A stretch of 64,000 nucleotides of DNA from Jiangella alba (GCF_900106035.1 NZ_FNUC01000004.1:1178001-1242000), one strand, 5' to 3'. Counted from the stretch's first letter, positions 35,129 to 60,130 are shown. The notes: generated by a model from the letters alone, not told the origin. A program made the numbers and translations.

Positions 35129-35131
35129 GAC

Positions 35132-42164: not shown

Positions 42165-42965
42165 TCACGCCGCCGCGGGGACGTCGGTGCGGAGGGCGCG
42201 CGCCACCTTGCGGATGGCGCGACTGGCCCGTTGCCGCGCCGCCGGCCAACTGAGCCCGTGCCGTTCGGCCGCCGCCGCGCCGCCCTCGGTGCCCGGGGCC
42301 GGCGTGTAGATGTCGAGGATCAGCGTGGCGTCGGCCGCCGTGATGGTGCCGTCGTCGACGGCCCACGTGAGGAGGTCGAGCAGTTCGTGGTCGGCGGTGG
42401 TCCGCTCGGACGGCGGCAGCGGCATGAGGTCGGCGGCCAGGACGTCGGGACTGGTGGGGGTCTCGCTGAGCTGATGGGTCAGCTCACCGGTGACGGCGCG
42501 CAGCGTCTCCATGGCGAGGTTGGCCGCCACCTTCACCGGCCGCCGCTCGATCGGATAGGTCGCGATGGTCGTCCACAGCGCGGCGACGGCGGTGTGCTCG
42601 AGCGCCGGCTTGGTGTCGCGGCCGGACCGCGTCATGGCGATGCGGACCGCCTTGCCGAGCATGAGCTGCAGGACGGTCCGCCCGGCCAGTGAGTCGCCGG
42701 CCTGGGCGAGGCGCAGCAGCGCGAGCAGGATGCGGTCGGCTTGCTCGGCGCCGGCCGCGGCGACGGCCAGTTCGACGTCCTCGAGGGCGAGGCAGCCGGA
42801 CAACTCCGGGTGCCGGCGGGCCCACTGGGCGACCGCGGACTCGGTGCGCGGGTCGGCGCACAGCCCGCTCCATTCGGTGTTCAACCGGCCCACGAGACTC
42901 GCGTCGGCACGACGGCGGGCGCCGCTGCAGGTGACGTCGGGGGCGGTGGTGACGGGTGTCGGCAT
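42165..42965 (-). CDS. helix-turn-helix protein resembling a sigma-like regulator
   Basis: A 266-residue protein with ATG 42965 and a GGAGGAG site. The last 60 residues (ADATLILDIYTPAPGTEGG, then SWPAARQRASRAIRKVARAL) look like a sigma region-4 or LuxR-type helix-turn-helix. The N-terminal 200 residues are helical and unfamiliar, and no region-2 motif is visible, so it may not be a true sigma factor. It diverges from the type IV secretion-like genes (254-bp gap) and is a natural candidate for their regulator. Confidence 0.6.
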   Translation of the reverse strand: MPTPVTTAPDVTCSGARRRADASLVGRLNTEWSGLCADPRTESAVAQWARRHPELSGCLALEDVELAVAAAGAEQADRILLALLRLAQAGDSLAGRTVLQLMLGKAVRIAMTRSGRDTKPALEHTAVAALWTTIATYPIERRPVKVAANLAMETLRAVTGELTHQLSETPTSPDVLAADLMPLPPSERTTADHELLDLLTWAVDDGTITAADATLILDIYTPAPGTEGGAAAAERHGLSWPAARQRASRAIRKVARALRTDVPAAA

Positions 42966-43218
42966 CGGGTGTCTCCTCCGGGGTGGATCGACGCTTCAAC
43001 CGTGGTCGGAGGGGCTTGCCCTGGGTCTTGCCCGGACGGGTCGAGAGGCCGGAATTTCACTTGCCCGGTTGGGGAGTGTGCAGGTCAGCGGCTTGCCCGA
43101 TGACCGTGATGATCCAAATGCCCGATCCGCCGCCGCAACCCGCCCCGATCACCCCGTCACAAGACGCCACCCCCCGGCACCTACGCAGACAACCGACCCG
43201 CCGACCGAGGAGCCCGAG

Positions 43219-43545
43219 ATGACAGAGCGCTTCAGCAACCGGCAGTCCCTCATGGACGCGGCCACGGTGCTGGCGGCGCGACGGGCCATCGACCGGGAGC
43301 TCGCTCACCTCATCGCCGACCCCTTCGATCGCGACGCGGCCAAGCGGCTGCACGACGCGGTGGGCGCCAACGCCGACCGCGCGCAGGAGGCGCTCGAACG
43401 GCTGGTGCACGTGACGGAGCTACGCGAGCCGTGGGAGCCGGGCGTGGTCGGCACAGGCTCCGGTGCGGGCTCGGACGGTGAGGTGGCTCCTCCGTCCTCG
43501 AGCCCGCACCGGTACGACGCGACTCACGAGGAACCGGCGCCATGA
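43219..43545 (+). CDS. small helical protein, first gene of the T4SS-like locus
   Basis: A 108-residue protein, MTERFSNRQSLMDAA..., helical for about 75 residues and then disordered and Gly/Ser-rich. GAGGAG lies 5 bp before ATG 43219. Its stop overlaps the TcpC-like start (ATGA), so it belongs to the operon. No family is recognised; a cytoplasmic accessory factor is possible. The longer open frame from 42565 lies opposite the sigma-like gene and is not used. Confidence 0.65.
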   Translation: MTERFSNRQSLMDAATVLAARRAIDRELAHLIADPFDRDAAKRLHDAVGANADRAQEALERLVHVTELREPWEPGVVGTGSGAGSDGEVAPPSSSPHRYDATHEEPAP

Positions 43546-44774
43546 AGATCAACTGGGGCTTCGGGCCACCGAAGGACGACGACGCCGGCGGGCGCAAGGC
43601 CCGCGGGCGCGGGGCCGGTCCGCGCGGCGCCGCCGCCGACTCCCCGGACACTGACACCGACGGCCCGCGGTCCGAGCAGCACACGTGGACCGGCGGCTCC
43701 CAGCTCGCCACCCGCATCGTCGTCGGCCTGCTGTGGGTCGCGCTCGTCGCCGGGCCGATGGCGCTGGCGCTGCAGGTGCTCATGCCCGAGAGCCGTCCCG
43801 TCGTGAACCAGGACGGCTACGTCGACCGCCTCGGCGAGGCCGCCGCCGTCAGCGAGTTCGCCGAGCGCGCCGTCGTCACCTGGCTCGAGACGCCGGGCGA
43901 GCAGTCCGACGAGCTGCGCCCCTACTTCGGCGACCTCGGGCAGAGCCGGCCCGACGTCCCGTGGACGACGTCCGGCTCGGCCGTCGCCGAGATCGTCAAG
44001 GACGACACCGGCCTCTGGGCGGTCACGGTGGGCGTCGACGCCGCCGAGGGCAAGCCGCCGGCCGACGCCGAGCCCGCGGCCGACGCGCCGGCCGAGCCCG
44101 CCGAGACCCCCGACGGCGACGCCGCCGAGGACGACGCCGACGCCGAACCCGTCGAGCGCATCACCTCCGGCCGCCTCTACTTCCAGGTGCCCGTCCTCTA
44201 CGTCGACGGCGAGATGATCGCGCAGGCGCTGCCCGCACCGGTGCCGGCGCCCGACGAGTTCGAGCAGCTGGCCTCCGCCTACGACCACGGGCTCGCGGCC
44301 GACCACCCCGCGTACGCCCGCGTCGCCAACTTCCTCAACGCCATGCTCGTCAGCGGCGACCAGGCCTCGCTCGAGGCCTACAGCAGCCCGGGCACGTCGT
44401 TCCGCGCCCTGAACCCGGTGCCGTACGCCGGCGTCCAGGTCGACACCATCGTCGCCGCCGGCGGCGAGGCGCCGAGCGAAGAGCCGTCCGACGGCGAGAC
44501 CACCGAGGTCCAGGCCAACGTCACGCTGAGCGGCTCCAACGGCGAGCAGCTCGGCGCCCAGTACTCCCTGGTGCTCCGTGCGCGCGAGGGCCGGTGGGAG
44601 GTGGCCCGGCTGCGCACGTCGCCCGCGCTGGCCGAGCCGGTCCCGCTGCCCGAGCCGGCGCCGGTCACCACCCCGACTCCTGGGACGAGCGGGACCTCGT
44701 CCCAGGGCCCAACGCCGACGAGGGAGGCCGAATCAGACCCACCAGCCACCGGGTCGACCACCGAGTCGCCCTAG
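43542..44774 (+). CDS. TcpC-like conjugation-type membrane protein (VirB8 fold)
   Basis: A 410-residue bitopic protein. A charged cytoplasmic tail (1-50), one membrane helix (TRIVVGLLWVALVAGPMALAL, about 57-77), then two NTF2-like extracytoplasmic domains separated by an acidic Ala/Pro/Glu insert (about residues 165-206), and a Ser/Thr/Pro-rich tail. The tandem NTF2 design is that of TcpC from pCW3 and Tn916, the VirB8-like scaffold of Gram-positive transfer systems. The acidic insert is unusual. ATG 43542 overlaps the previous stop. Confidence 0.8.
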   Translation: MKINWGFGPPKDDDAGGRKARGRGAGPRGAAADSPDTDTDGPRSEQHTWTGGSQLATRIVVGLLWVALVAGPMALALQVLMPESRPVVNQDGYVDRLGEAAAVSEFAERAVVTWLETPGEQSDELRPYFGDLGQSRPDVPWTTSGSAVAEIVKDDTGLWAVTVGVDAAEGKPPADAEPAADAPAEPAETPDGDAAEDDADAEPVERITSGRLYFQVPVLYVDGEMIAQALPAPVPAPDEFEQLASAYDHGLAADHPAYARVANFLNAMLVSGDQASLEAYSSPGTSFRALNPVPYAGVQVDTIVAAGGEAPSEEPSDGETTEVQANVTLSGSNGEQLGAQYSLVLRAREGRWEVARLRTSPALAEPVPLPEPAPVTTPTPGTSGTSSQGPTPTREAESDPPATGSTTESP

Positions 44775-44820
44775 CCGACCACGTCCACGCACCTCAGCCC
44801 GCACACAAGGAGAAGGAGCC

Positions 44821-45144
44821 ATGAGCCTCATCACCGGACTCACGGCGACGGCACCCGACCTCGCCACCTCGTCCATCACCATCCAGGCCGGACTGCTCGA
44901 CTGGACCACTGACACCGCCTCGAGCCTGCAGACGGTGCTTCGCGTGGTGGCCATCACCGTGGCCATCCTGTTCGTGGTCTACAAGGCCGTGAACTCGAAG
45001 TTCGCCATCGGCACCATCATCGTGTCCGCGCTCGCCGCCGGCGTCTTCATCTGGATCGTCTACAACGTCACCGCCCTGCGCGACACCGTCGGCGAAGACC
45101 TCCCCGGGTCGGCGCCGGTGTCACAGCAGGTCGACCTGACGTAG
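44821..45144 (+). CDS. small two-helix membrane protein (TcpD/VirB2-like position)
   Basis: A 107-residue protein with two membrane helices (VLRVVAITVAILFVVYKAV, about 39-57, and IGTIIVSALAAGVFIWIVY, about 62-80) and no signal peptide. GAAGGAG precedes ATG 44821. Size, topology and place between the TcpC- and TcpE-like genes match the small membrane subunit (TcpD or a VirB2/TrbC-like component) of Gram-positive transfer systems. Sequence identity to a named family cannot be judged here. Confidence 0.65.
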   Translation: MSLITGLTATAPDLATSSITIQAGLLDWTTDTASSLQTVLRVVAITVAILFVVYKAVNSKFAIGTIIVSALAAGVFIWIVYNVTALRDTVGEDLPGSAPVSQQVDLT

Positions 45145-45186
45145 CCGCCCCCGCCCCCGGCCAGCCGCGAGAGGAGGTGACGATCG

Positions 45187-45921
45187 ATGGCCGACGACCC
45201 CGAGGAACTCGAGACAGTCAAGTACTACACGCGGGCGCGCAAGTTCCCGCAGCTGCTCGGGCGCATGCCCGACGGCACGAAGATCCCCGGCGGGCCGTAC
45301 ACGGTTCAGCAGCTGATCGCGGCCATCCTCATCATCGTCATCGGCGGGCTGACCATCGACACCTGGGGTGTGTTCGGGGTCTTCGGCAACATCGCCCTGT
45401 TGTTCGGCACGGCGTTCGGCGCGGTCTTCCTCATCGGCCGGTTGCCGATGAACGGCCGCAACCCGCTGTACGCGCTGCTCGGCCTGTACCGCGTGCTGAA
45501 CGCGCCCGCGTCGGGGCGGTACCAGGGCAAGCAGGTGCGGTTCCGGCGGCCGCGGCGGGTCCGCAGCCGCACGAACGTCTACCTCGGCCCGCTGCCCGGC
45601 ACCGACCCGTGGAGCGGTCTCGAACCCGGCGTCGCCGTCGCCGCCGGTCGCGAGCTGCCCGACGGGTTGCGGCGTCGCCTCGACCGCACGCCCGAACCGG
45701 CGCCCGAGCCGCTCGACGATCCGCTCGCCGCGGTCGATCCGGCGCACCCGGGCGCGCCACTGAGCGGGGTGCAGGCGCTGCTGGCCCTGCTCCCGGCCGA
45801 CCAGCACGACCAACCCGCGAGCGGACGCCGTCAGGCGTCACGTCAGCGGGGCCAGCAGCGCACCGCCGTCCGGCAGGGGAGCGGCGAGGTCAGCGATTCG
45901 TGGGGTGAGGACGATGCGTAG
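45187..45921 (+). CDS. TcpE-family conjugation-type membrane protein
   Basis: A 244-residue protein with the TcpE-like core: a basic amphipathic N-terminus (YYTRARKFPQLLGRM) and two adjacent membrane segments (residues 41-57 and 62-85), then a basic region RRPRRVRSRTNVYLGPLPG. TcpE is a VirB3-like partner of the VirB4 ATPase. The C-terminal 100 residues are a Pro/Gln-rich tail. AGGAGGTGA before ATG 45187 is one of the strongest ribosome sites in the window. It overlaps the ATPase gene. Confidence 0.8.
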   Translation: MADDPEELETVKYYTRARKFPQLLGRMPDGTKIPGGPYTVQQLIAAILIIVIGGLTIDTWGVFGVFGNIALLFGTAFGAVFLIGRLPMNGRNPLYALLGLYRVLNAPASGRYQGKQVRFRRPRRVRSRTNVYLGPLPGTDPWSGLEPGVAVAAGRELPDGLRRRLDRTPEPAPEPLDDPLAAVDPAHPGAPLSGVQALLALLPADQHDQPASGRRQASRQRGQQRTAVRQGSGEVSDSWGEDDA

Positions 45922-48532
45922 TCCGGCGCGGGCCATGGCCGGCCATCTGCTCTGGTCGCGGGGCGGCACGGTGTGGGCGACGTGGCGGCTGCAGGCGCTG
46001 CCGTACGGCTTCCGGCCCGACAAGGACAAACACGGCGTGCGGGCGGCGCACCAGGCGCTGCTGCGGGCGCTGCCGGGCGAGGCGCTGCTGGTGGGCGCCT
46101 GCGCGGCGCTCGATCCCGCGGCCATCGTCGAGCGCATGATCAACGGCATCCCGCTGGAACACTGCCCCGAGTGGGCGGCCGAGTGCGAGGCCACCCTCGA
46201 CACCCTCGACGACCTCGCGCTGGGCCAGCGGACGTTCTGGCTGAGCGTGCCGCTGCGCAACGGCGGCCGGTTCGGCAACCTCAACGAGTCGTTCCGGGCC
46301 GCCGTCGACGACTTCCGCGACCAGCTGGCGCTGCCGCGGCACGGCATCTCGCCGGCCGAGCTGAAGGTGCGCACGGAACAGGCCCGCAAGGTCGAGCTCG
46401 GCATCCCCGCCGTGTTCCGGCCGCGCCCGGCCACCGTCGCCCAGCTGGTCTGGCTCTACCAGCACACGTTGCAGCGCGGGCTGTTCGCCGACATGGACCT
46501 CCCCGAGACGCGGGCCGACCACGAAGCCGCCGTCGTGCCCCGTCACGGCGTGCTCTGGCCCGACGCGCTGATCGACGAGGGCGGCCAGTCCGAGCTCGAC
46601 CGCCGTCAGCTCAAGAGCTGGAACCCGCTGCGCCGCAAGTTCGTCAAGATCACCCAGCCCGACCACCCCGACGCCGTCTCCTACCAGGGGCTGCTGGCGC
46701 TGGCCGACACCCCCGCCGACGGCATGGTCTTCCCCGGCGGCGAGTACCTCGGCCGCGTCGACGACGCCGGCCTCGACGTCGACTGGGCGGTGCGGCTGCA
46801 CACCCGCACGCGCGAAGAGGTCATCGCGCGCAACCGGCGCGCCGTCGCCAACCTCAACGACCAGTTCCTCCAGCAGGAGGGCCAGCTCGCCACCGGCATG
46901 CACGCCATCGAGCGGTCCGCACGCGACCTCGCCGAGTACGAGGCGCTGCTGTCCGCCGACGACCTCGAGGTCGAGGTCGAAGCCACGGTCATCTTCTGCG
47001 TCGCCGGGCGCACCGGCGAACAAGTCATGGAGCAGGCCAAGGAGCTGCAGGCGTTCTACGGCGCCTCCGGTTTCAAGCTGACGCACCCGCTGGGCAACCA
47101 GGAAGACCTCTGGTGGGCCATGCTGCCCGGCGCGCCGCTGTCCAAGTCGGTCCGCGAGTTCGGGCAGATCACCACGTCGCACTCCTTCTCCGCGTCGGTC
47201 CCGGTGGTCACCTGCGACGTCGGCGACAGCAAGGGCAGCCTGCTCGGCCTGAACATCTCCACCGGCCAGACCGGCGTCGTCCACCACGACCCCGCCGGCG
47301 CCACCACCAGGCTCGACGTCTCCGGCTCGCTGGCCATCGCCGGCGAGCTGGGCGCCGGCAAGTCCGTCGCGCTGAAGAAGATCGCCGCCGACACCGTCGA
47401 CCGCGGCGGCCGGTTCATCGCGCTCGACCGCACGGAGTCCGGCGAGTGGGTGACCATGGCCCGCGCGCTCACCACGCCCACCGTCGTCTCCGTCGTCGAC
47501 CCCACCATGAGCATGGACCCCCTCCGGGTGTTCGACCGTCACACCGGGTCGCGGGTCGCGCAGTCGTTCCTCACCCCGCTGCTCAACGTGTCGCCGACGT
47601 CCGAGCGCGGCGTGCTGCTGTCCGAGGTGCTGGAGGTCGGCTACCTCGCCCGGCACGGCGTCCGCGGCCTCGGCGACCTCACCAAGCACCTGCTCGAGAG
47701 CTGCACGCTCGACGGCGCCTACGAGCTGGGCCGGCTGATGAACGTGTTCGCCCGCAAAGAGTTCGGCCGGGTCATCTTCGACACCTCGCTGCCGCCGGTC
47801 GAGCTCAGCGACCGCGCCATCGTGTTCTGGACCCGCACGCTGGAACTGCCCGACCGCGACGAACTGCAGCACGCGCACCTGTTCGAGCAGCTGAAGCTGG
47901 AGAAGATCTTCGGCCGGGCCATGTACGCGCTGATGGCCAGCATGGGCCGTCAGGTCTGCTTCGGCGACCGGTCCGAGCTGGCACTGTTCATCGTCGACGA
48001 GGCGCACCACGTCACCGCGTCGCCCGAGGGCGAGCGCGAGATCACCGTCTTCGTCCGCGACGGCCGCAAGCACCAGGCCGCGGTCGCGCTGGGCAGCCAC
48101 GACCCCGAGAGCGACTTCGGCGACGCCACCCTGCGCGGCCTCATCCCCACCCGCATCCTCATGCGCCACCGCGACAAGACGCTGGCCAAGCGCGGCCTCA
48201 AGTGGCTCGACCTCGACCCCGACGACGAATCGCTGGTCGCGCTGATCACCGAGCACACCAGCCCGGTCGGCCCCGACGGCGTCCCCGAGATGCGCCGCGG
48301 CGAGGCGCTCATGCGCGACGCCCTGGGCAACGTCGCCCGCATCAAGGTCATGCCGCCGTCCCGGCCCGAGCGGTTCGAGGCGATGAAGACGTCGCCGCCC
48401 GAGGTGCTGATCGGCGGCCACCGTCCCGGCGGCGCGCTGGGCGGGCGAGCGCCGCACGCCGGTGAGCTCGAGCCCGGCGACGCACCGCCCGAGCTCGAGG
48501 CCGGCCGCGCCGTCGGCTCGAGGCCCGCATGA
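45914..48532 (+). CDS. VirB4/TcpF-like secretion ATPase
   Basis: An 872-residue ATPase. The N-terminal half is the VirB4-type docking domain. The motor domain has Walker A GELGAGKSVALKK (K483) and Walker B LALFIVDEAHHV (D695-E696), and the HDPESDFGD segment that follows is typical of the VirB4/HerA class. All catalytic residues are present. It would energise assembly and substrate passage. The start is ATG 45914 or GTG 45905; neither has an ideal ribosome site, and TcpE overlap suggests coupling. The stop overlaps the next gene. Confidence 0.88.
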   Translation: MRSPARAMAGHLLWSRGGTVWATWRLQALPYGFRPDKDKHGVRAAHQALLRALPGEALLVGACAALDPAAIVERMINGIPLEHCPEWAAECEATLDTLDDLALGQRTFWLSVPLRNGGRFGNLNESFRAAVDDFRDQLALPRHGISPAELKVRTEQARKVELGIPAVFRPRPATVAQLVWLYQHTLQRGLFADMDLPETRADHEAAVVPRHGVLWPDALIDEGGQSELDRRQLKSWNPLRRKFVKITQPDHPDAVSYQGLLALADTPADGMVFPGGEYLGRVDDAGLDVDWAVRLHTRTREEVIARNRRAVANLNDQFLQQEGQLATGMHAIERSARDLAEYEALLSADDLEVEVEATVIFCVAGRTGEQVMEQAKELQAFYGASGFKLTHPLGNQEDLWWAMLPGAPLSKSVREFGQITTSHSFSASVPVVTCDVGDSKGSLLGLNISTGQTGVVHHDPAGATTRLDVSGSLAIAGELGAGKSVALKKIAADTVDRGGRFIALDRTESGEWVTMARALTTPTVVSVVDPTMSMDPLRVFDRHTGSRVAQSFLTPLLNVSPTSERGVLLSEVLEVGYLARHGVRGLGDLTKHLLESCTLDGAYELGRLMNVFARKEFGRVIFDTSLPPVELSDRAIVFWTRTLELPDRDELQHAHLFEQLKLEKIFGRAMYALMASMGRQVCFGDRSELALFIVDEAHHVTASPEGEREITVFVRDGRKHQAAVALGSHDPESDFGDATLRGLIPTRILMRHRDKTLAKRGLKWLDLDPDDESLVALITEHTSPVGPDGVPEMRRGEALMRDALGNVARIKVMPPSRPERFEAMKTSPPEVLIGGHRPGGALGGRAPHAGELEPGDAPPELEAGRAVGSRPA

Positions 48533-50697
48533 GCGTCGTCGCCGGCGCCGTCAGCATCGCCGCCGAGGCCTGCCAGGTCCCCGGCGGCAACGGCCTGGGC
48601 GACCAGTTCATCAACCCGACGGGCAACTGCGAGCTGTCGGCGTTTCACGTGCAACTGTCGTTGGCCGGCGGCATCACCGACCCGTTCCACCTGATCTTCA
48701 AGGTGCTCATGACGATCACCTGGGCGATCTACCAGTTCCAGGTCATCGCGCTGGCGTGGGTCACCGACTTCGTGCTCGGCATGACCTGGCTCGACTGGTT
48801 CACCGGCATCGCCGGAGACTTCCAGGACTCCATCGCCGGCATGTTGTCGAACCTCAACATGTACGTCGCGATGCTGACGATCACGGCGTTCATCTGCATG
48901 CTCTGGATGGCCAGAGGCATGTGGGGGAAGGGCCTCGTGCAACTCCTGTTGTCGCTGATCATCGCGAACTATGCGGTGGCGGCCATCAGCTACGACAGCC
49001 AGCATCCCGACAACAACCTGGCGCCGATCAACCCCATCACCTGGCTGGTCGGCGACAACGACAGCCAGGAGGGCCTGCTCTACGACGCCCGCGACACCTC
49101 CCAGTACCTCGTCGGCCAGATCGTCAACGACGACGAGTACCTCGACGACCTGACCAATCCCGAGAACCAGCGGGTCAGTCCGGGCGAGAGCATCCTCAAC
49201 ACGTTCCTCTACCACCCGGCCATGCTGGTCAACTTCGGCTACATCCTCGAGGGCGACTGCGAAGAGGCCTACGTCGTCGCGCTGTCCCACGCCGGCAACA
49301 GCTCGTCGAAGGACGACCTCCGCGGCGACCTCGAGGACCGCGACCTCGCCGGCCGCGGGTCCGCCGCCGACGGCATCGACACCGGGTCCGAGCTGACCGA
49401 CCCCGGCACCTGGTGGGGCGGCACCGGCGACGAGCCCGTCGACTACGACCCCGAGGTCTGGAAAGTGGTCGGCAGCTGCCTCAACGACGAGGTCGACACC
49501 TTCGCCAAGATGGCCCGGCCCGACAGCTGGATGGCGCAGTTCGCGATCCAGCCGGCCGTCACCATCCTCGCCGTGCTGATCCTCATCATCGCCGGCGTCG
49601 TGTTCATCGCCGGCCTCTCGGCGCTCGTGCAGTGCATCAAGCTGCTGGTCACGCTGCTGCTGGCGATTCTCCCCGGCGGCGCCAGATCGGTGCTGTGGCG
49701 CAACATCGGCCAGCTGTTCGCCACCGTCCTCATGCTGATGTTCTGCATCGTCTTCCTCGGCGTGTTCCTCCACGTCGTCACGGACATCATGGCGGCCGGA
49801 CGAGCACCCACCGGCAACCCCGACGACCGCTCCGTCCGCTGGGCCGAGATCGGCAAGTTCCTGCTCATCGACCTGCTGCTGATCGCCGGCATCGTCCTCT
49901 TCTGGCGTGGCCGCGGCGCCGTCCACGAGACCAAGGACCGCGTCGCCGCCGCCATGGCGTCGAAGTTCAACTCTGGCGGTGGCGGAGGCGGCGGCGGGTT
50001 CGGCGGCGGCTCGTCCCTCATGCCGACAGGTGGCCCGGGCGGTGCCATGCGCCGTCTGAACGGCATCAACGCCATGGGCGACGCGGTCCGCAACGTCAAG
50101 GGCATCACGAAGACCGCAGGAATCGCCTGGGCCACCGGCGGCGGCTCCGTCCTCGCCAGGGGAGGCACGGCCGTCGCCAAGTCGACCGTCGTGCGCGGAA
50201 CCCGCCAAGCGGCGGCCAACCGTGGGGGCCAACTCGTCGAACAGGCGCGGAGGCAGCGCGTCAAGCACCACCTGAAGCAGGGCAACCACGAGGCGGTCCA
50301 CAAGGTGAGGACCTTCAGCCGGCGGGCTGAGGTCGCGCGCGCCGACCGCATGGACGAGGCACGGTTGCGGAAGTTCGACCGGCAGACCAAGCGGGCCGAG
50401 GTCGGAGCGCGCCTGACGAACGGCCGCCTCGGCGCCAAGAGGGTGAATCACGCCCCGGACCGGCGCACGGAACTGCAGTCCGATCTCGCGGCCAAGCGCC
50501 AGGCGATGCTGGACAGGCACACCGCGGAACGTGAGGCCGAGCGAGCGAGGCTGACCCCCGACCAACGACGCGTGGCCGAGGCGCGAGAAGACAGACTCAA
50601 GCAGCGCGACCTGTGGCGACAGGCGAGGCGCGATGCCAGATCACCGAAGCCGGGTGGTCAGTCCAATGGCTCGATGGACGGAGGAACGACTCGATGA
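48529..50697 (+). CDS. polytopic VirB6/TcpH-like channel protein
   Basis: A 722-residue membrane protein. Hydrophobic segments lie near residues 55-85, 105-130, 140-155, 340-370, 380-395, 400-430 and 445-462. A large extracytoplasmic loop (about 155-335) carries several Cys. A Gly-rich linker follows (near residue 485), then a 220-residue basic, helical cytoplasmic tail rich in Arg and Lys. This is the layout of VirB6/TrbL/TcpH channel subunits. ATG 48529 overlaps the ATPase stop. The basic tail could contact DNA or the ATPase. Confidence 0.78.
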   Translation: MSVVAGAVSIAAEACQVPGGNGLGDQFINPTGNCELSAFHVQLSLAGGITDPFHLIFKVLMTITWAIYQFQVIALAWVTDFVLGMTWLDWFTGIAGDFQDSIAGMLSNLNMYVAMLTITAFICMLWMARGMWGKGLVQLLLSLIIANYAVAAISYDSQHPDNNLAPINPITWLVGDNDSQEGLLYDARDTSQYLVGQIVNDDEYLDDLTNPENQRVSPGESILNTFLYHPAMLVNFGYILEGDCEEAYVVALSHAGNSSSKDDLRGDLEDRDLAGRGSAADGIDTGSELTDPGTWWGGTGDEPVDYDPEVWKVVGSCLNDEVDTFAKMARPDSWMAQFAIQPAVTILAVLILIIAGVVFIAGLSALVQCIKLLVTLLLAILPGGARSVLWRNIGQLFATVLMLMFCIVFLGVFLHVVTDIMAAGRAPTGNPDDRSVRWAEIGKFLLIDLLLIAGIVLFWRGRGAVHETKDRVAAAMASKFNSGGGGGGGGFGGGSSLMPTGGPGGAMRRLNGINAMGDAVRNVKGITKTAGIAWATGGGSVLARGGTAVAKSTVVRGTRQAAANRGGQLVEQARRQRVKHHLKQGNHEAVHKVRTFSRRAEVARADRMDEARLRKFDRQTKRAEVGARLTNGRLGAKRVNHAPDRRTELQSDLAAKRQAMLDRHTAEREAERARLTPDQRRVAEAREDRLKQRDLWRQARRDARSPKPGGQSNGSMDGGTTR
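48642..48655. other. parS-like site (one mismatch) in the VirB6-like gene
   Basis: GTTTCACGTGCAAC differs by one base from the parS palindrome. It encodes residues FHVQL of the channel protein. At 27 kb from the main parS cluster it is within the usual origin-proximal zone. It may be chance. Confidence 0.45.
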
Positions 50698-51236
50698 GTC
50701 AACTCGACAGGTTGCGAGCCGGCATGCCCGCCACTCCAGAAACGGCGCGTGGTCCACGTGTGTCGCACCCCGACGCACGTGGGCGGCGCAGCGACGGCGA
50801 CGAGCTGATCATCGAGGTGCTCGCCAAACTGGGTGCGGATCACGTGGCTGATGGCGACGAGATCAGCGGCATCTGGGAGAACGGTCTGTTCTTCTTCGGC
50901 ACCTTGGGGGGTGCTCAGGCCGGCGAGGACGTCTTCCACATCCGCGGGGTGTGGGAACGCGCCGTGCACGTGGACGAGCTCTCCAAGGGCCTGATGTTCG
51001 CCAACGACTGGAATGCGGAACATGTCTGGCCCAAGGTGTTCGTCCAGCAGGACGAGACGGATCTCCTGTTCCATGGCGAGACCACCGCGGATCTCGGCGC
51101 CGACCCTTCGTTCGAACTCGTGGAGAAGCTGATCACGACGGCTGTCAGTGCGGCACTCGAGGTGTTCCACGTCGCCGAACGAGCGTTCCCGAATGCGCAC
51201 CTCATCGCGGAGTCGCCGCCTGGCTGGCGCGACTGA
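50694..51236 (+). CDS. YbjN-like protein (type III chaperone-like fold)
   Basis: A 180-residue protein whose residues 45-165 fit the YbjN/secretion-chaperone fold: a strand followed by ENGLFFFGTLGG, VHVDELSKGLMFANDWNAEH and a helical end (LITTAVSAALEVFHVAE). YbjN proteins are small, soluble and of unclear function; some have been compared with type III secretion chaperones. ATG 50694 overlaps the channel stop (ATGA). Within a secretion operon, a substrate or assembly chaperone is a reasonable guess. Confidence 0.65.
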   Translation: MSQLDRLRAGMPATPETARGPRVSHPDARGRRSDGDELIIEVLAKLGADHVADGDEISGIWENGLFFFGTLGGAQAGEDVFHIRGVWERAVHVDELSKGLMFANDWNAEHVWPKVFVQQDETDLLFHGETTADLGADPSFELVEKLITTAVSAALEVFHVAERAFPNAHLIAESPPGWRD

Positions 51237-51250
51237 CAGCGAAGAGTGTT

Positions 51251-52159
51251 GTGCCTAGGGTTGTCACCAAGGTCGACGGTGAGATGAGGGACCCCCGGAT
51301 GTCGGCATTGCAGGGAAGACGGGGCGATGCTCCCGATCGCCGCTCTACTCGTGCGCCGTCGAGGCCACACGATCCTGGGCCATCGGCATCCACGTTGGCC
51401 GGTCGGTTCGAGCCGATCCGGGGTACGGCCTGGCAGACGTGGGACGATCTCCCGTACCAGGTGCGCAGGGCACTGAAGGGTGCGCACTGCCTGCCGTCTG
51501 CCGAGTTCGTCGGCGGTGCTCGGCCACCGGCGCCGCCTGCCCACGACGACGACCGCATCGAGTACGCCGAAGCGTGGACCGTAGGCGAGGACTCATGGAT
51601 CTTGATCGAGGGGCGCCGCCCACGAGCACTGCGGGGTAGCGCTGCTCGGCCATGGAACCTGACGGTGCGCCGCTACCGCTACGTCGGGGAGATCAAGAAT
51701 CGGTGTGGGGCCGTTGCCGTCGATGCCGATGCGACCAGGGCCAGCGGCGAGAGACATGATCTCGACGACGAGCAGCCCTCCGTGCTCGACGTCCTGCCGG
51801 CAGCCGTGCGCGCCCAGCTGATGAACACCGTGCCTGATCCTCGGTTCGAGGATCAGTTCCTGGTCCAGGATCGGCACAAGGGCCGGCCGTACAAGCACCG
51901 GGCGGGTGTCATCAGGGCATCGCCGAGGCAGATCATCGCCGTGCTGGCAACCCGGCAGATCGAGCAACGCCGCTCGGGTTCGGTACGCGAGGCGGAGAGA
52001 CAGCTGGCGTCGGCCCCTTGGGACCTGCGGGCCCTCACGGCGCGGTTCGGGCGCGAGGAGGTCGTCACGCTCGAGGTCGTCGACGACGAGGTCGCACTCG
52101 ACGGAGGCGGTGCGATCGCGCTGCCGCCGTCGAGCTCCGACGCGGGGCGGAGTGGCTGA
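51251..52159 (+). CDS. unknown protein of the T4SS-like locus (302 aa)
   Basis: A 302-residue protein with a basic, disordered N-terminus and a mixed C-terminal part without membrane segments. A repeated Arg-rich tract (LATRQIEQRRSGSVREAERQ) precedes a helical end. No family is recognised. The start is uncertain (GTG 51251, ATG 51284 or ATG 51299). Its stop overlaps the J-domain gene by 8 bp, and it lies 14 bp after the YbjN-like gene, so it is in the operon. Codon use is slightly less GC-rich than in the tcp-like genes. Confidence 0.5.
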   Translation: MPRVVTKVDGEMRDPRMSALQGRRGDAPDRRSTRAPSRPHDPGPSASTLAGRFEPIRGTAWQTWDDLPYQVRRALKGAHCLPSAEFVGGARPPAPPAHDDDRIEYAEAWTVGEDSWILIEGRRPRALRGSAARPWNLTVRRYRYVGEIKNRCGAVAVDADATRASGERHDLDDEQPSVLDVLPAAVRAQLMNTVPDPRFEDQFLVQDRHKGRPYKHRAGVIRASPRQIIAVLATRQIEQRRSGSVREAERQLASAPWDLRALTARFGREEVVTLEVVDDEVALDGGGAIALPPSSSDAGRSG

Positions 52160-53384
52160 CGCGGTGCCCGACCTCGACTACTACGAACTCCTCGAGGTGC
52201 CGCCCACGGCGACCGCCGCGGAGATCAAGGACGCGTACCGGCGCGCCGTGCGCACGGCGCATCCGGACGTCGGCGGCACGACCGCCATGTTCCGCCAGAT
52301 CACCACCGCCTACGAGACGCTGAGCGACCCGGTACGCCGGGCCGACTACGACGCGGGGCTGGTACACCCCGGTGCCCGCACCACCGATGTCTGGCCCGAC
52401 GATCTGGACGCCGAGGCTCCCCAACCCGCAGACCCGGGTTGGGGACACGAGGCGTCGTGGGACGCGGCGGACGGGCGGCCGGACACTTATGTGGGCGACC
52501 CGGATGCGTGGATCCACGGGAGGCGTGGGCTCCTCGTCATCGAGCTGTCCTGGACGGTCGTCGCGGCCATCTTCGCCTTCGGCGTGGTGATCCTCCTCTA
52601 CACGCCCGAATGGCTACGGCCCGGCGCGGCCGGTCCCGATCTGCTGTCCTGGTACGGCGAGCAGCCCGTTGTGCGCCTGGTCTCGGTCGTCGCCTACCTG
52701 GCGATCCTCGGATCGGTGTGGGCCGATTCGGCCCGTGCCCTCGTCGCAGTTCACGCCGCCTTCGCCCTGCTACTGGTGGGCTGGGTCGTAGCGTACTGGG
52801 GAATCGCGACGACACCGGAACGCTGGTGGTTCGGCGCCGGAGTCGTGCTGTGGCTGTTGTACAACGTCCTCCTGACCGCGACCGTCTATCTCTCCGGGGC
52901 GCGTGAGGAGTTCGCAGCGCATCGACGCCGATCAGATCCATCGCAGGTCAGTGACCTGACGCGGTGGGCGCGGACGGACGCGGGCGGCCGCGCCGTGCAG
53001 ATCGGCTACGGCGTGCTCGCGGTCACGTTCGTGTTCCTGGCAGTGGTCCTGCTCGTGGCGAACGGCCTCATCCGGCCGGCGGCCGCCGGTCCCGACGCGC
53101 TCGACGTCGGGCTGCGGTACCCGCTCGCCGTGGCGATCGTGGTGGTGCTGTACGGCTATATCGCCTACATCTCGATCGGGCACCGCAGCGGCCTGGAGCT
53201 CGTGTTCGTTCCCGTGGCCATTGGCCTGCTCGCATGGCCGCTGGCGTACTGGGACCTTGCGACGACCAGCGAGCGGTGGCTGTTCGGCCTGGTCGTGGTG
53301 GCTTGGGCGCTCCACGTCGCAGCGATGTACGCGACCTCGTCGCTGATCGATCGGCGCCGGCCGACGCCGGAGTGGACGCGGTAG
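52152..53384 (+). CDS. J-domain membrane protein with internal duplication
   Basis: A 410-residue protein. Residues 8-70 form a DnaJ-type J domain with the HPD motif at 37-39 (TAHPDVGG). An acidic linker follows, then about eight membrane segments in two blocks, roughly residues 125-260 and 281-405. The blocks share similar elements: LRPGAAGPD then AYWGIATTPERWWFG, and IRPAAAGPD then AYWDLATTSERWLFG, so the membrane part arose by duplication. J domains activate DnaK, so it may recruit Hsp70 to the membrane system. GTG 52152 overlaps the previous stop. Confidence 0.75.
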   Translation: MADAVPDLDYYELLEVPPTATAAEIKDAYRRAVRTAHPDVGGTTAMFRQITTAYETLSDPVRRADYDAGLVHPGARTTDVWPDDLDAEAPQPADPGWGHEASWDAADGRPDTYVGDPDAWIHGRRGLLVIELSWTVVAAIFAFGVVILLYTPEWLRPGAAGPDLLSWYGEQPVVRLVSVVAYLAILGSVWADSARALVAVHAAFALLLVGWVVAYWGIATTPERWWFGAGVVLWLLYNVLLTATVYLSGAREEFAAHRRRSDPSQVSDLTRWARTDAGGRAVQIGYGVLAVTFVFLAVVLLVANGLIRPAAAGPDALDVGLRYPLAVAIVVVLYGYIAYISIGHRSGLELVFVPVAIGLLAWPLAYWDLATTSERWLFGLVVVAWALHVAAMYATSSLIDRRRPTPEWTR

Positions 53385-53518
53385 AGGCTGGCGGGCGGCC
53401 GGATCCCCCGCGCGCCTGATCCGTCCGCGGGCGACCTGTCACAGAACCACCCCGGCGACGACCTACACAGACGTCCGCTAGCAGCCGCCGTGGCAGGCGC
53501 CCGGATGGAGGGCGGGGT

Positions 53519-54889
53519 ATGGCACAGGGTTCGGTCGCCGCCGGCGGGGCCGTCGTCGCCAGGCGCACCAAGACGAAGCCGGCGCGCACGCCGGGCGGCA
53601 AGGGCTCCGGCCGGGTCCGCAAGTGGATCCTGGGCATCGCGCTGCTGACGGTGTTCGGCGTCGTCGGCGCGGCGTCGCTGGCGTTCGTCCCCGTCGCGAC
53701 GGTCATGGCGCTCTGGTGCGAGATCACCGACCGCGCGCCGCTGGCCGAGTGCACCATGACCCCCGGCGGCGACGTCTGCACCGGCGGTGCCACGCTGGCC
53801 AACGTCCCCGAGCCGTGGGCCGAGATCTTCACCTCCGCCGGCGACGAGTTCAGCATCGACCCCGCCTACCTCGCGGCCATCTACCTCACCGAGAACGGCA
53901 ACACCTGGAAAGACCTCGACACCGACTGGCCGAGCTCCGGCTGCTGCTTCGGCCCCATGCAGTTCAACCTCGGCGCCGGCACCTGGGACGCGTACAAGTA
54001 CAGCGCCGGTGGCGGTCCACCCGACTACATGGACCCCGGCGACGCCGTCTTCACCGCGGCGAACCTCTTCACCCATACCGACGGCGTCTACGGCAGCGTC
54101 ACCGCCGAGACGCCGCTGGGCGACGCCGCCCGCTGGGATCCGGGCACCTTCGTCTACTCCGCCGCCAGCTACAACGCCGGACCGGCGGGCAACTGGAACA
54201 ACGACGAGACCAGGCGCTACGTCGAGAACGTGCACGCGCTCATCTCGTCCAACTTCACCCAGGGCGGCACCGGCGACTACGGCCAGTACGCCACCTATCC
54301 GCCGCCGAGCGGCATGGGCATCGGCGAGGGCGGCGACGGCGACCAGGGCGAGGGCGGCGGCTGGGCCGGCTGCGGCGGCATCAGCGGCGGCGGCCTCGAC
54401 GGCGTCGTGCGCATCGCGGAGCAGGAGTACGCCAAGGGCATCGTCGAACAGCCGCTGGGCAGCAACTGCGGGCCGACCATCACCGACACCTACATCGCCA
54501 GCGGCTGCGAGCAGTGGTGCGCCGACTTCGTCAGCTGGGTCTACCTCGAGGCCGGCATCCCGTTCCAACCCGAAGCCGGTACCCAGATGTACTTCTGGCG
54601 ACATCAGTGGCAGATCCCGGCCGTCATCGGCATGAAGGCGTGGTTCGAGTCCGGCGGGCAGGGCCAGGAGTTCATCCCCGTCGGCAGCGCCGGCCCCACG
54701 AAGCCGCCCCGCCCCGGCGACGTCATGATCTACTCCGGGCACGTGAGCATCGTGGTCGAGGTCGACGAAGCCAGCCGCACGCTGGTCACCATCGGCGGCA
54801 ACGAGAACGACAGCGTCCAGCGCTCGCCCGGCACGTTCAGCGTCGGGCCGAGCGGCCCGGTGCTCGGCTACGGGCGGATGAACCCATGA
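53519..54889 (+). CDS. lytic transglycosylase and CHAP bifunctional cell-wall hydrolase
   Basis: A 456-residue VirB1/TcpG-like hydrolase. A basic tail and one membrane anchor (residues 36-62) precede an SLT-type domain with candidate catalytic E125 (IYLTENGNTW) and the ASYNAGPAGNW motif near 222. After a Gly-rich linker comes a CHAP domain (from about 300) with C334 (QWCADFVSW) and H408 (SGHVSIVVEV). It would cut both glycan and peptide to open the wall for the secretion channel. GGAGG lies 7 bp before ATG 53519. A 134-bp gap separates it from the J-domain gene. Confidence 0.85.
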   Translation: MAQGSVAAGGAVVARRTKTKPARTPGGKGSGRVRKWILGIALLTVFGVVGAASLAFVPVATVMALWCEITDRAPLAECTMTPGGDVCTGGATLANVPEPWAEIFTSAGDEFSIDPAYLAAIYLTENGNTWKDLDTDWPSSGCCFGPMQFNLGAGTWDAYKYSAGGGPPDYMDPGDAVFTAANLFTHTDGVYGSVTAETPLGDAARWDPGTFVYSAASYNAGPAGNWNNDETRRYVENVHALISSNFTQGGTGDYGQYATYPPPSGMGIGEGGDGDQGEGGGWAGCGGISGGGLDGVVRIAEQEYAKGIVEQPLGSNCGPTITDTYIASGCEQWCADFVSWVYLEAGIPFQPEAGTQMYFWRHQWQIPAVIGMKAWFESGGQGQEFIPVGSAGPTKPPRPGDVMIYSGHVSIVVEVDEASRTLVTIGGNENDSVQRSPGTFSVGPSGPVLGYGRMNP

Positions 54890-55680
54890 CCCGGTCGCGC
54901 TCCTCGCTGCTGCTGGTCGCCGCCGCGGCGGTGCTCGCCGTCGTCGGGCTGCTGCTGGTGTTCGGCGGTGGTGGCGACGACGGCGATGGCGGCGGCCCCC
55001 CGGGTGGCGCCGCCGGCGTCGCGCCGAGCCCGGTCGAGTCCACCGACCTTGACCCGCCGGACGACGCCGCCGCTGGCTCCGAGCCGCCGGCCGCCCCGCC
55101 GACCGACGCCGCTACCAGCGACGCCGCCGACGAGCCGCTCGAGCCGTCCGACACCCCGACCGCCCAGCCGACCCCCGCACCCCGTCAGACCCCCACCCTC
55201 CCGCCGGGCATGCGCCAGCCCGAACCCGTCGTCGTGCCCGACCCCGCCGCCGTCGACGACGCCGACCCGACCGCCGTCGCCGTGGCCGCTCTGACCGCCG
55301 CCTACAGCTTCGACGCCGCGAGCGACGCGTCGGCCGAGGACGCCATGGCCCGGGTCCAGGCGTGGCTGGCCGCGCCGCACGACGATGCCGCCTACGACCT
55401 CGACGGCCTGCGGCAGGACGTCCAGCGCGACTGGGAGCAGTGGGCGCAGCACCAGGCGTTCGCCTCGATCAACGCCATCGACCCGCACACCACCGACGTC
55501 GACACCCCCGACACCGCGACCCGCGCCGAGCGCCGGTTCTACGTCCGCATGACGCCGATCGGCCGCGACGCGTGGAACGGCCCGCTGGTCGAGCACCAGT
55601 GGTTCGCGTTCCTCGCCCGTGCGTCGGCGGCCGAGCCGTGGCGCATCGTCGAACTGCAGACGCCGCTGGCGCACCGCTGA
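54886..55680 (+). CDS. membrane-anchored protein with Pro-rich stalk
   Basis: A 264-residue protein with an N-terminal membrane anchor (SLLLVAAAAVLAVVGLLLVF, residues 7-26), a Gly/Asp then Pro/Thr/Ser-rich extracytoplasmic stalk of about 80 residues, and a helical/beta domain from about 120 to the end (ADPTAVAVAALTAAY, then FYVRMTPIG and IVELQTP). The last domain could be NTF2/VirB8-like, which is a guess. ATG 54886 overlaps the hydrolase stop, suggesting the two proteins work together across the wall. Confidence 0.65.
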   Translation: MTRSRSSLLLVAAAAVLAVVGLLLVFGGGGDDGDGGGPPGGAAGVAPSPVESTDLDPPDDAAAGSEPPAAPPTDAATSDAADEPLEPSDTPTAQPTPAPRQTPTLPPGMRQPEPVVVPDPAAVDDADPTAVAVAALTAAYSFDAASDASAEDAMARVQAWLAAPHDDAAYDLDGLRQDVQRDWEQWAQHQAFASINAIDPHTTDVDTPDTATRAERRFYVRMTPIGRDAWNGPLVEHQWFAFLARASAAEPWRIVELQTPLAHR

Positions 55681-55759
55681 CCCGGCGTCCCACCCTTGTC
55701 ACAACACCCCGTCCGCGCGCACCTTCGACAGTGAGGACCGACAACGGAGAGGCAGTCCC

Positions 55760-57622
55760 GTGGCGCCACATGACCCGGCCGACACCTTCGCCGCCGCGTC
55801 CGGGCCGCCCGACGCTGACGGCAGCGACGACAGGTTCGCGTCGGCGCGCCCGGCCGAGCCCACCATCAAGGGCTTCACGCCGTGGCAGCTGGCCGCCAGT
55901 GCCGTCGGCGTCGTCTTCCTGGCCGTGTCGATGTGGGCCATCCTGGCCGCGCTCGACGAGCCCGACATCGGCGTGCTGTTCCTGCTGCCGACGCTGGCCT
56001 GTGCCGGCGCACTGTATGCGGTGTCGGTCCGGCGGCGGCTGCGCCAGAACGCCGTCACCGACCTCGCCGAGGCGCTGGTCCGGCACCTCGGCGTGCCCGA
56101 CGCCTCGTACCTCGACATCGACGCGCGGCAGTGGCAGGGCGGCTGGGTCGGCGTCCCGCACGTGCTGAACATCCAGTACCCGACCGAGGTCGACGACTCC
56201 GCACCCGGCTGGGCCGCCGGCGTCGCCGAGGCCGTGCACCTGCAACTGGACGAGCAGTACACCGTAGGCCGCCACAACGTCCGCGGCCACCGGCTCACGC
56301 TGCGCGACCCCACGCGGAGCGCCGGTTCGCTCACCCCCGAGCCGGCCGCGCGCGCCGAGCGGGCCCGCGACGCCGTCCGCCGGGCCTTGCCCGACCACAT
56401 CGCCCGGCCGGTGCCGACCCAGGCCGACCTGTCGTCGTGGCTGCTGCCGCTCGGCGTCGACGCCAGCGGCACGCGGGTCGGCTGGAACCTCGCCGCGCCG
56501 CAGGGACATCTGCTGGTGCTCGGGCGGTCCGGCGCCGGGAAGCGGGTGCTGCTCACCGGCATCGCCGTCGAGGCGGCCGCGCGTGGCTGGCCCGTGTGGA
56601 TCATCGACCACCGCCGCGTCGACCTCCTCGGCGTGCGCGACTGGCCGAACGTGCAGATCGTCGCGTCCACGCTCGACGACCAGATCGTCGTGCTCAACCA
56701 GGCGTGGCGCGAGATGGAGGGCCGGGTGGCGCTGATCGAGTCCGGGTCCAGCCGCAGCGAGCTCGAGCCGCTGGTCGTCGTCGTCCACCACTTCCGCGAG
56801 TTCGCCACCGCCGTCGCCGACGCTGCCAACCGGGCCGGACAGAGCGCGGCCGCCGCGTCGCTGGCGCACGACCGCGTCACCGACCTGCTCCGCCACGGCC
56901 GCCAGGTGAACGTCTATCTCGTCCTCAGCATGCAGCGCGCCGACGACCCGCTGCTGCGTGACGAGCACCGCGACGACGTCGGCACCGTCGTGGCGCTCGG
57001 CCGCCTCGACAGCCGCGTCGCGTCGGCGCTGTGGGGCAGCGACCGCCCGACCGAGCCGGCCGAACCAGTGCCCGGCCGGGCCACCGTGCAGTCCGGCGAC
57101 GCCACGCCGGCGCTGATCCAGTGCTACTGGACCCCCGACCCGCGTGAGGCGCGCCGCGTCAACGACGAGCAGGACCTCTACCTGCTCGACGCGCTGCGCC
57201 CCAGTGTCGTCACGCACCCCGTCCTGCACGTGCAGCGTTCCCGCGCGCTGGCCGACAGCCCCGAGGCGTCGTGGCGGGTCAACCTCAACGCCGACCTCGC
57301 CGAGGGCTACAGCGCCGGCACGTCCGGCCTCGCTGACTGGAGCCGCGCCCGCTCCTCCGGCGGCGGGTCGGCGGCGGCCGCGTCCACGCAGGTCGAGACC
57401 GCCGGCTGGTCCGAGATGATCATGGTGTCGCAGCTGCAGGCCGGCAGCCTCGCCCGCCTCGACGACGACACCGGCTGGGTCATCATCGAGCAGGTCGAGC
57501 CGGTCCAGAACGACGGCACCAAGCTGCAGCTCCACTGGCGCGGCAACGACGGCGCCGGGTCCCAGGTGGTGTCGCGCACGCGGGCGGTGCGCATCCGGCA
57601 CCTCAGCGACGGCATCTACTGA
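55760..57622 (+). CDS. FtsK/TcpA-like protein with degenerate nucleotide-binding motifs
   Basis: A 620-residue protein with two N-terminal membrane segments (about residues 45-90) and a cytoplasmic FtsK/SpoIIIE-like domain, the position and topology of a coupling ATPase. The catalytic motifs are altered: the P-loop reads GRSGAGKR, with R262 where Thr or Ser should coordinate magnesium, and Walker B reads LVVVVHHF, with H343-H344 for Asp-Glu. It may bind but not hydrolyse ATP, or serve as a receptor. GTG 55760 has GGAGAGG upstream. It may have no free DNA to pump, since no relaxase is present. Confidence 0.75.
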   Translation: MAPHDPADTFAAASGPPDADGSDDRFASARPAEPTIKGFTPWQLAASAVGVVFLAVSMWAILAALDEPDIGVLFLLPTLACAGALYAVSVRRRLRQNAVTDLAEALVRHLGVPDASYLDIDARQWQGGWVGVPHVLNIQYPTEVDDSAPGWAAGVAEAVHLQLDEQYTVGRHNVRGHRLTLRDPTRSAGSLTPEPAARAERARDAVRRALPDHIARPVPTQADLSSWLLPLGVDASGTRVGWNLAAPQGHLLVLGRSGAGKRVLLTGIAVEAAARGWPVWIIDHRRVDLLGVRDWPNVQIVASTLDDQIVVLNQAWREMEGRVALIESGSSRSELEPLVVVVHHFREFATAVADAANRAGQSAAAASLAHDRVTDLLRHGRQVNVYLVLSMQRADDPLLRDEHRDDVGTVVALGRLDSRVASALWGSDRPTEPAEPVPGRATVQSGDATPALIQCYWTPDPREARRVNDEQDLYLLDALRPSVVTHPVLHVQRSRALADSPEASWRVNLNADLAEGYSAGTSGLADWSRARSSGGGSAAAASTQVETAGWSEMIMVSQLQAGSLARLDDDTGWVIIEQVEPVQNDGTKLQLHWRGNDGAGSQVVSRTRAVRIRHLSDGIY

Positions 57623-57630
57623 GGGGCGCC

Positions 57631-57939
57631 ATGGCCGACAACGTCTCCGACAACGACGTGTTCATGATGTTCCTGGCCGCGCCACTGGCCCTGCCGGTGG
57701 TGGCGCCGCTGGTGTTCAGCTCGTGGGACGAAGGCCGCGAGTGGATGATCGACCGCGGCTTCATCGCCTCCGCCGACGACGCCGTCTGGGAGGTCCCCGG
57801 CTGGGACGGCGCCGGCATCAGCGGTGCCCACGTCGTCCTGCTGGTGTGCCTGGTGCTGTTCGTGCTGGCGCTCGGCAGCATCCTGGCGCGGCGCAACCGC
57901 AACCGGAAGATCGACACCGAGGGCTGGGGCACCAGCTGA
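57631..57939 (+). CDS. small two-helix membrane protein
   Basis: A 102-residue protein with two hydrophobic segments (MMFLAAPLALPVVAPLVF near 12-29 and HVVLLVCLVLFVLALGSIL near 66-85) around a Trp-rich extracytoplasmic loop, ending in a basic cytoplasmic tail. It starts 8 bp after the FtsK-like stop, the last gene of the operon. No family recognised. The order and size fit an accessory membrane subunit of the T4SS-like machine. Confidence 0.6.
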   Translation: MADNVSDNDVFMMFLAAPLALPVVAPLVFSSWDEGREWMIDRGFIASADDAVWEVPGWDGAGISGAHVVLLVCLVLFVLALGSILARRNRNRKIDTEGWGTS

Positions 57940-58105
57940 CGTTCGCCCCTTCGGCGGCCGCCCTCCCTTCGCCGCCGACCCTGCCCGACCCGGCCGACTC
58001 GCAGGGCTGCGTACGTTCCGGTTGAGGGTCGGTCGACCGGCCGTGGCCCGTGGAGTTTGCGCGCCCACCAATCCCGCAGACCCGGCCGGCTCGCGGACCT
58101 GCTGC

Positions 58106-58335
58106 ATCGGGCCCGCTGATCCCCACGCCGTCCGAGCTGGCCTGGCTTGCCCGGCCGAGCCCGCCGATCGGGCACGCTGATCCCCACGCCATTCGGGCCG
58201 GTCTGGCCGGCCCTGCCGAGCCCGCTGGATCGGGCTCGCTGGTCCGCGACGTCCGAGCCGGTGAGGCCCACACTGCTGGATCGGGCCCGCTGGTCCGCGG
58301 CGTCCGAGCTGGCCTGGTCCGCCCGTTCGCCGAGC
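58106..58335. repeat. four degenerate tandem repeats of 51-62 bp
   Basis: ATCGGGCxCGCTG starts a unit at 58106, 58167, 58229 and 58280. Units share ATCGGGC, CGCTG, TCC and GTCCGAGC-like blocks and differ elsewhere. They fill a gene-free 475-bp stretch (57940-58414) between the T4SS-like operon and the convergent acetyltransferase gene. The remaining part of the gap shows no gene. The repeats may act as a termination or structural zone, or be a decayed gene end. Confidence 0.65.
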
Positions 58336-58414
58336 CTTTCGGCCCGCGGCCGGTCGGCGAATCGGGCGACCGGCCGCGGGCCCCCGCAGCCGGTCGCTGT
58401 GCCCCGCGGCTGGG

Positions 58415-60128: not shown

Positions 60129-60130
60129 GG

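Follow-up and report, generated by a model that had tools for sequence, protein, structure and literature searches.

A chromosomal locus of Jiangella alba, at positions 43219 to 57939 of a 64,000-nucleotide stretch (GCF_900106035.1 NZ_FNUC01000004.1:1178001-1242000; the whole stretch is called the window here), encodes a type IV secretion system (T4SS) that we tentatively favor as a domesticated machine with a swappable specificity module, probably acting on a protein substrate; self-recognition directed at its VirB6-like protein is the main rival. The genomic island in which the locus lies retains, as judged from sequence motifs, an intact VirB4, a wall hydrolase and a Tad pilus ATPase, and it lacks a relaxase or integrase. 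The findings suggest a new role in protein export or cell-to-cell recognition. The genes of the locus are numbered g1 to g13 and are listed with the other features in Table 1.

The FtsK-like coupling protein, g12, matches FtsK_SpoIIIE marginally (25.3 bits against a cut-off of 24), and in 14/14 chromosomal copies its Walker A motif has changed from GKT/S to GKR and its Walker B motif from DE to HH. Among plasmid-type homologues, both motifs are intact in 11/11, one of these being the additional mobile-type copy of J. rhizosphaerae. Because g12 remains under purifying selection (dN/dS of 0.14 to 0.21), it would be a retained pseudo-ATPase rather than a decaying gene, and because both catalytic motifs are lost, pumping of plasmid DNA by the system's own coupling protein has presumably ceased. 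The state of the coupling ATPase is, by this comparison, better evidence against conjugation than the absence of a relaxase.

The second line of evidence is a block of DNA, comprising the VirB6 tail and genes g7 to g9, that is exchanged as a cassette. Among the 13 cassettes compared, all from one family, architecture A (YbjN, g8 and J-protein genes all rightward) is found in the window and seven other genomes, and architecture B (J-protein rightward, g8 leftward, YbjN rightward) in five. The VirB6 tail, which follows the final membrane segment and then a linker rich in glycine, is also of two types, and these match the cassette type in 13/13 genomes. The genome with the closest flanks (G010) is 96% identical to the window DNA up to position 50096 and 93% identical from 53408, and between these positions the two are unalignable apart from the J-domain; other A/B pairs have identical breakpoints. 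The A/B label switches at least four times on the trees built from the left flank and from the right flank, and once on each cassette-gene tree. Within a given genome pair, synonymous divergence (dS) of the cassette genes reaches 2 to 4 times the value seen in most flanking genes; since synonymous sites are also raised and dN/dS is mostly 0.15 to 0.32, fast protein evolution was ruled out as the source of the divergence. The simplest reading is that repeated interspecies recombination has replaced the cassette, including the tail, and that divergent alleles are maintained. The initial annotation had singled out the three extra genes as foreign to known Tcp systems, and this was borne out: none of the plasmid-type relatives examined carries g7, g8 or g9. 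Outside this locus, g8 was not found in 394 Actinomycetes genomes. Arrival of the cassette with known plasmids or phages was ruled out, as searches of plasmids, phages and viral contigs gave no g8 match.

The cassette proteins themselves may take part in substrate handling. The AF2 model of g7 (pLDDT of 82.5) retrieved YbjN, DR1245 and AmyR first in Foldseek, followed by the class I type III secretion chaperones SrcA, ExsC, SycE, SicP and VecA; the YbjN fold has been described (PMC5398634, PMC3575483). Next to this chaperone-fold gene in both architectures is g8, which encodes a disordered N terminus with a conserved G-x-S-x-S-T-L motif followed by an alpha/beta core; a fold search with its model gave nothing meaningful (best TM score of <0.2), and no family match was found. 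The HPD motif of the J-protein g9 is intact in 13/13 genomes, and hydropathy gives it eight membrane segments in type A (window) and four in type B (G010).

The remaining genes form the conserved chassis. The 13 rightward genes of the initial annotation were confirmed, with overlaps between several, and its labels for the TcpC, VirB4, YbjN, J-domain, wall-hydrolase (CHAP by Pfam) and FtsK proteins agree with Pfam, whereas its TcpE-like (g4) and VirB6-like (g6) proteins had no match in Pfam or NCBIfam and are named from gene order and homologues in plasmid loci. Hydropathy of g6 shows six hydrophobic segments, the last at amino acids 441 to 459, and its position and plasmid-locus homologues fit VirB6. 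The TcpC/VirB8-like g2 scores 37.3 bits against its family (E value of 3.5e-9; cut-off of 27), and the VirB4 ATPase g5 scores 149 bits (E value of 1.8e-43). VirB4 carries Walker A (GELGAGKS) and Walker B (LFIVDEA) motifs that are intact in 13/13 genomes, and its dN/dS is 0.03 to 0.10. The VirB4 gene of G010 seems to be frameshifted into two overlapping frames, representing either a pseudogene or a sequencing error. Identity of g3 within Jiangella and Haloactinopolyspora is 77 to 100%. In the hydrolase g10, CHAP scores above the cut-off, with its Cys motif kept in 13/13 genomes, and the SLT domain scores below it. No Pfam or NCBIfam match was found for g11, and a profile comparison found no relation to g2. 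Sequence searches of the PDB with VirB4, TcpC, g7 and g8 profiles found nothing.

The 13 genes make up the right half of a ~38.4-kb genomic island with sharp edges, which runs from window position ~27,984 past the window end to ~66,439 and also holds Tad pilus genes upstream (30.6 to 40.4 kb) and an FtsK/coiled-coil module downstream (59.7 to 65.3 kb). It is flanked by an amidase gene (26757-27983) on the left and trxA (66440-66763) on the right, and in five relatives (G012, G017, G019, G020, and G021) the amidase homologue and trxA are directly adjacent, free of the island. All 12 Jiangella genomes carry the island, with VirB4 identities of 92 to 99%, as do both genomes of the Haloactinopolyspora group (one being Haloactinopolyspora alba), at 86 to 88%; among the remaining family members, a VirB4 match, a weak one, occurred in one genome only (G015). 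The chromosomal location, near dnaA and parAB, is identical in 14/14 genomes. Gene order and neighbors are constant in Jiangella as far as contigs reach, and in Haloactinopolyspora just g10 and g11 are inverted. The genes preceding the locus, read from translations, are gyrase-type genes, dnaA, parA and parB, placing it close to oriC. A search for attachment repeats at the island edges gave nothing convincing, only a single 14-bp direct repeat. The patchy distribution in the family and the element-like boundaries around an empty site argue that a plasmid-type transfer module was inserted here long ago, and the comparison indicates that the common ancestor of Jiangella and Haloactinopolyspora acquired it once, between the amidase gene and trxA, and that it was then kept.

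The closest plasmid VirB4 proteins are those of pXCEL01 (55% identity), Rhodococcus linear plasmids such as pBD2 (44 to 46%), pAL1 (44%) and pKRAD01 (43%), with distant Streptomyces plasmid homologues at 31 to 35%. The four named plasmids have the T4SS gene order of the island, and Tad genes were seen in pXCEL01, pKRAD01 and, partly, pAL1. The plasmid and island modules share the Tad cluster, a divergent sigma/HTH (helix-turn-helix)-like gene, g1, TcpC, small membrane proteins, VirB4, VirB6, hydrolase, FtsK and g13, in that order, and neither has a relaxase recognized by MOB-suite. The island differs in being chromosomal and fixed, in having lost the coupling-ATPase motifs and in containing the cassette, which the plasmids lack. 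The best reading of these similarities is that the island is a domesticated descendant of a Tad pilus and T4SS transfer module of actinobacterial plasmids. Three further observations concern related loci. In J. rhizosphaerae, a 15-kb contig (L041) carries a second, mobile-type T4SS, with a VirB4 of 64% identity, intact FtsK motifs and no cassette. The VirB4 of Actinopolymorpha pittospori (L086:10001-13870) has a ~430-amino-acid insert in its P loop that contains a LAGLIDADG domain and ends in ...VPTHN/T, i.e., an intein; upstream of it are a transposase-like open reading frame and part of a second VirB4 copy. The Tad and T4SS halves of pAL1 (L109) have a BREX defense system precisely at their junction.

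No relaxase (TrwC, MobA-type or Replic_Relax) was found near the locus or in the island; the genome as a whole yielded just two relaxases, both of them TrwC proteins on contig C3 (~3.23-3.32 Mb; 994095), and PF03432 and PF13814 had zero matches genome-wide. A Streptomyces linear-plasmid version of the module has a "replication-relaxation" gene directly after the FtsK homologue, and this family had no match in the Jiangella genome. Tyrosine integrases (PF00589) had no match within the island (contig C4, 1,205,984 to 1,244,440), and serine and DDE recombinases were absent from Pfam scans of the island, a genome-wide search not having been made for these. The nearest tyrosine integrase, at window positions 3620 to 4762, is part of another element, of RepSA type, located at a tRNA-Ala gene. 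This pSAM2-type element (68-4914) comprises an FtsK-like gene, RepSA (PF20199; E value of 1.3e-146), the integrase and tRNA-Ala (4839-4914), and the gyrase, dnaA and parAB genes separate it from the T4SS island. One of the contig C3 TrwC genes sits among ParB-like matches and integrases.

An active integrative and conjugative element (ICE) was therefore ruled out by the lack of a relaxase or integrase and the fixed chromosomal site, and the initial annotation was right that the locus is resident and contains neither gene. It was mistaken that nothing element-like bounds the locus. It had held that either a flanking relaxase or integrase with attachment sites or a patchy distribution with element-like boundaries would contradict a resident system; the second was found and the first was not. 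Its scope was also too narrow, taking in neither the Tad half nor the pseudo-ATPase nor the exchangeable cassette. Furthermore, its inference from the missing relaxase was weak. The relatives pXCEL01, pKRAD01, pAL1 and pBD2 were all typed by MOB-suite as non-mobilizable, i.e., without a recognized relaxase, yet a published account calls pAL1 conjugative (PMC3534580) and the title of a reference cited by PMC4443254 calls pBD2 transmissible; the absence of a relaxase is consequently uninformative in this Tad-T4SS family.

It is possible, but held with some doubt, that the island encodes a polymorphic VirB4-driven system for protein delivery or kin recognition, derived from a domesticated monoderm conjugation machine whose coupling ATPase has become a pseudo-enzyme and whose specificity lies in a recombining cassette. 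VirB4 would power an envelope channel of VirB6 and VirB8, with the pseudo-FtsK g12 acting as a docking scaffold or receptor, and the cassette would determine what the channel handles. The YbjN chaperone g7 may bind and guide g8 or another protein substrate, and the J-protein g9 may recruit Hsp70 to the membrane, keeping the substrate unfolded. The basic, presumably cytosolic VirB6 tail would dock the cognate substrate, so that tail and trio would have to match. T4SSs that export proteins without a coupling protein are known (PMC12857230). Several points weigh against this proposal. The degenerate motifs of g12 predict loss of ATPase activity without proving it, and the intact second FtsK-like ATPase of the island could replace it. 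YbjN-fold proteins also occur in non-secretion roles (PMC5398634), and for g8 neither a known fold or family nor a secretion signal was recognized. In addition, the cassette sample is small (n = 13), and the function of the island is inferred rather than demonstrated.

The co-variation of VirB6 tail and adjacent genes would also fit an entry-exclusion or self-recognition module, in which the cytoplasmic tail is recognized by the cognate g9, g7 or g8 of a same-type neighbor, with types A and B and their subtypes as allotypes. In F and SXT/R391, TraS/Eex target TraG, which is a VirB6 homologue; cytoplasmic regions are involved, and the genes lie side by side (PMC11493245). As in those systems, a cytoplasmic VirB6 region and neighboring genes, including a polytopic membrane protein, form allele groups, which in this case are swapped between species. 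Moreover, cassette members are all homologous and under purifying selection, fitting recognition groups rather than unrelated toxins. Nevertheless, one small membrane protein is normally enough for exclusion, and the three cassette genes, with a secretion-chaperone fold and a J-domain, exceed that need; a machine that probably no longer transfers DNA also has less to exclude. Exclusion or self-recognition is unlikely, albeit the strongest competitor.

Continued DNA transfer, with the second FtsK-like ATPase or a coupling protein from elsewhere feeding chromosomal DNA or that of the contig C3 TrwC elements, is improbable. The plasmid family is used for conjugation, to judge from pAL1 (PMC3534580) and the pBD2 reference title (cited by PMC4443254), the second FtsK has intact motifs and is co-inherited, and the two TrwC elements could depend on a helper T4SS, since no other VirB4 was detected in the genome. 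However, in 14/14 copies the motifs mark the cognate coupling ATPase as dead, and the island has neither relaxase nor Replic_Relax. An envelope complex with a developmental role, in sporulation or in the segregation of chromosomes, similar to the Streptomyces coelicolor cmdABCDEF cluster, is distinctly improbable. That cluster is likewise chromosomal and relaxase-less, with a VirB4-like ATPase and membrane proteins, and its deletion affects sporulation and not transfer of an SLP2-derived plasmid (PMC2782261); the proximity of the island to oriC and the identity to the distant Streptomyces plasmid VirB4 proteins agree with such a role. By published description (not sequence), however, cmd consists of six genes, with no reported Tad, hydrolase, FtsK, YbjN or J-protein partners, and a developmental role leaves the swapping of alleles unexplained. 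A decaying relic of an integrated plasmid retained by chance, for which the motif-less g12 and the frameshifted G010 VirB4 might speak, is very improbable given retention at one site in 14/14 genomes, low dN/dS throughout and intact VirB4, hydrolase and other motifs, and repeated cassette exchange implies function.

Homologues of the island's Tad genes adjoin the T4SS in pXCEL01, pKRAD01, pAL1 and Brachybacterium, and the LysM protein has homologues in pXCEL01 and in loci of Nostocoides, Tessaracoccus and a Marmoricola metagenome-assembled genome. The two secreted/lipoprotein-like genes, which had no match in a Pfam scan, occupy the same place in Haloactinopolyspora, and a similar pair, identified by eye, lies beside the LysM gene in plasmid-type loci. 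The divergent sigma/HTH-like gene also had no Pfam match, and its pBD2 homologue is annotated as sigma-70 family. The second FtsK/EccC-like ATPase (62433-65270; 945 amino acids) has intact Walker motifs, and the downstream module that contains it shows high identity only in Jiangella and Haloactinopolyspora, co-inherited with the island; it might serve as a substitute motor or form a minimal type VII secretion-like module. A proline-rich membrane protein accompanies this ATPase and the coiled-coil/WXG-like proteins (59736 to 65270).

Table 1. Features of the island and the T4SS locus, in window positions
Feature	Position	Strand	Basis or remark
Genomic island	27984..64000 in window, continues to ~66,439	.	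Empty site in relatives
Two secreted/lipoprotein-like genes (199 and 304 amino acids)	28092..29599	+	Accompany Tad cluster
LysM protein (1306 amino acids), Tad cluster	30651..34571	-	PF01476
Tad/Flp pilus genes	34694..40368	-	Pfam
TadE	34694-35128	-	Pfam
TadB-like T2SSF	36359-37249	-	Pfam
CpaF	37264-38865	-	Pfam
Tad-cluster gene without assigned family	38858-39670	-	Tad cluster member
CpaB/SAF	39667-40368	-	Pfam
Divergent sigma/HTH-like gene between Tad and T4SS halves	42165..42965	-	Homologue in all plasmid-type loci
g1, small soluble protein (108 amino acids)	43219..43545	+	Conserved chassis gene, distant relatives included
g2, TcpC/VirB8-like	43542..44774	+	PF12642
g3, small protein with two transmembrane segments (TM; 107 amino acids)	44821..45144	+	Two hydrophobic segments
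g4, two-TM protein, TcpE/PrgI position	45187..45921	+	Conserved in plasmid loci
g5, VirB4 ATPase	45914..48532	+	PF12846
g6, VirB6-like polytopic protein	48529..50697	+	Membrane part to ~50096, basic tail 50097-50697
Exchangeable cassette (VirB6 tail, g7, g8, g9)	50097..53407	+	Alignment breakpoints
g7, YbjN, class I secretion-chaperone fold	50694..51236	+	PF10722, AF2, Foldseek
g8, novel ~290-amino-acid protein	51284..52159	+	Candidate cargo or recognition protein
g9, J-domain and eight-TM membrane protein	52164..53384	+	PF00226
g10, wall hydrolase, SLT-like and CHAP	53519..54889	+	PF05257
g11, exported/anchored protein	54886..55680	+	No recognized family
g12, FtsK-like coupling protein, predicted pseudo-ATPase	55760..57622	+	PF01580
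g13, small two-TM protein	57631..57939	+	Follows FtsK in plasmid loci too
Coiled-coil/WXG-like small proteins and second FtsK/EccC-like ATPase	59736..64000	-	Pfam, motifs

Tcp/Con-type T4SSs of Firmicutes (pCW3, Tn916, ICEBs1) share with the island a TcpC/VirB8-like protein, VirB4, a VirB6-like protein, a wall hydrolase and an FtsK-like coupling protein, but the island has no relaxase or integrase, has a Tad pilus attached, and its VirB4 is ~21% identical to Enterococcus plasmid homologues. Bordetella Ptl, Brucella VirB and Bartonella Trw have likewise kept a VirB machine and lost the coupling function, and Trw also has sequence-variable parts, as the island cassette does; those systems are diderm and wholly lack VirD4, whereas the island is monoderm and retains its coupling protein as a putative pseudo-ATPase. 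"MOBless" chromosomal T4SSs are an established concept (PMC3158045), so what is new here is not the absence of a relaxase but that a monoderm has a conserved pseudo-ATPase together with an exchangeable VirB6-tail cassette.

In actinobacteria, "no relaxase" should not be read as "not conjugative," and the state of the coupling ATPase is the better sequence test. Natural A/B swap strains, with G000 and G010 having the closest flanks, suit the study of T4SS specificity. According to a 2025 review, nearly all known functions of Gram-positive T4SSs are unidirectional DNA translocation, and dedicated effector translocation is a long-standing question (PMC12857230); the island provides a concrete, culturable test case for effector translocation by a Gram-positive T4SS.

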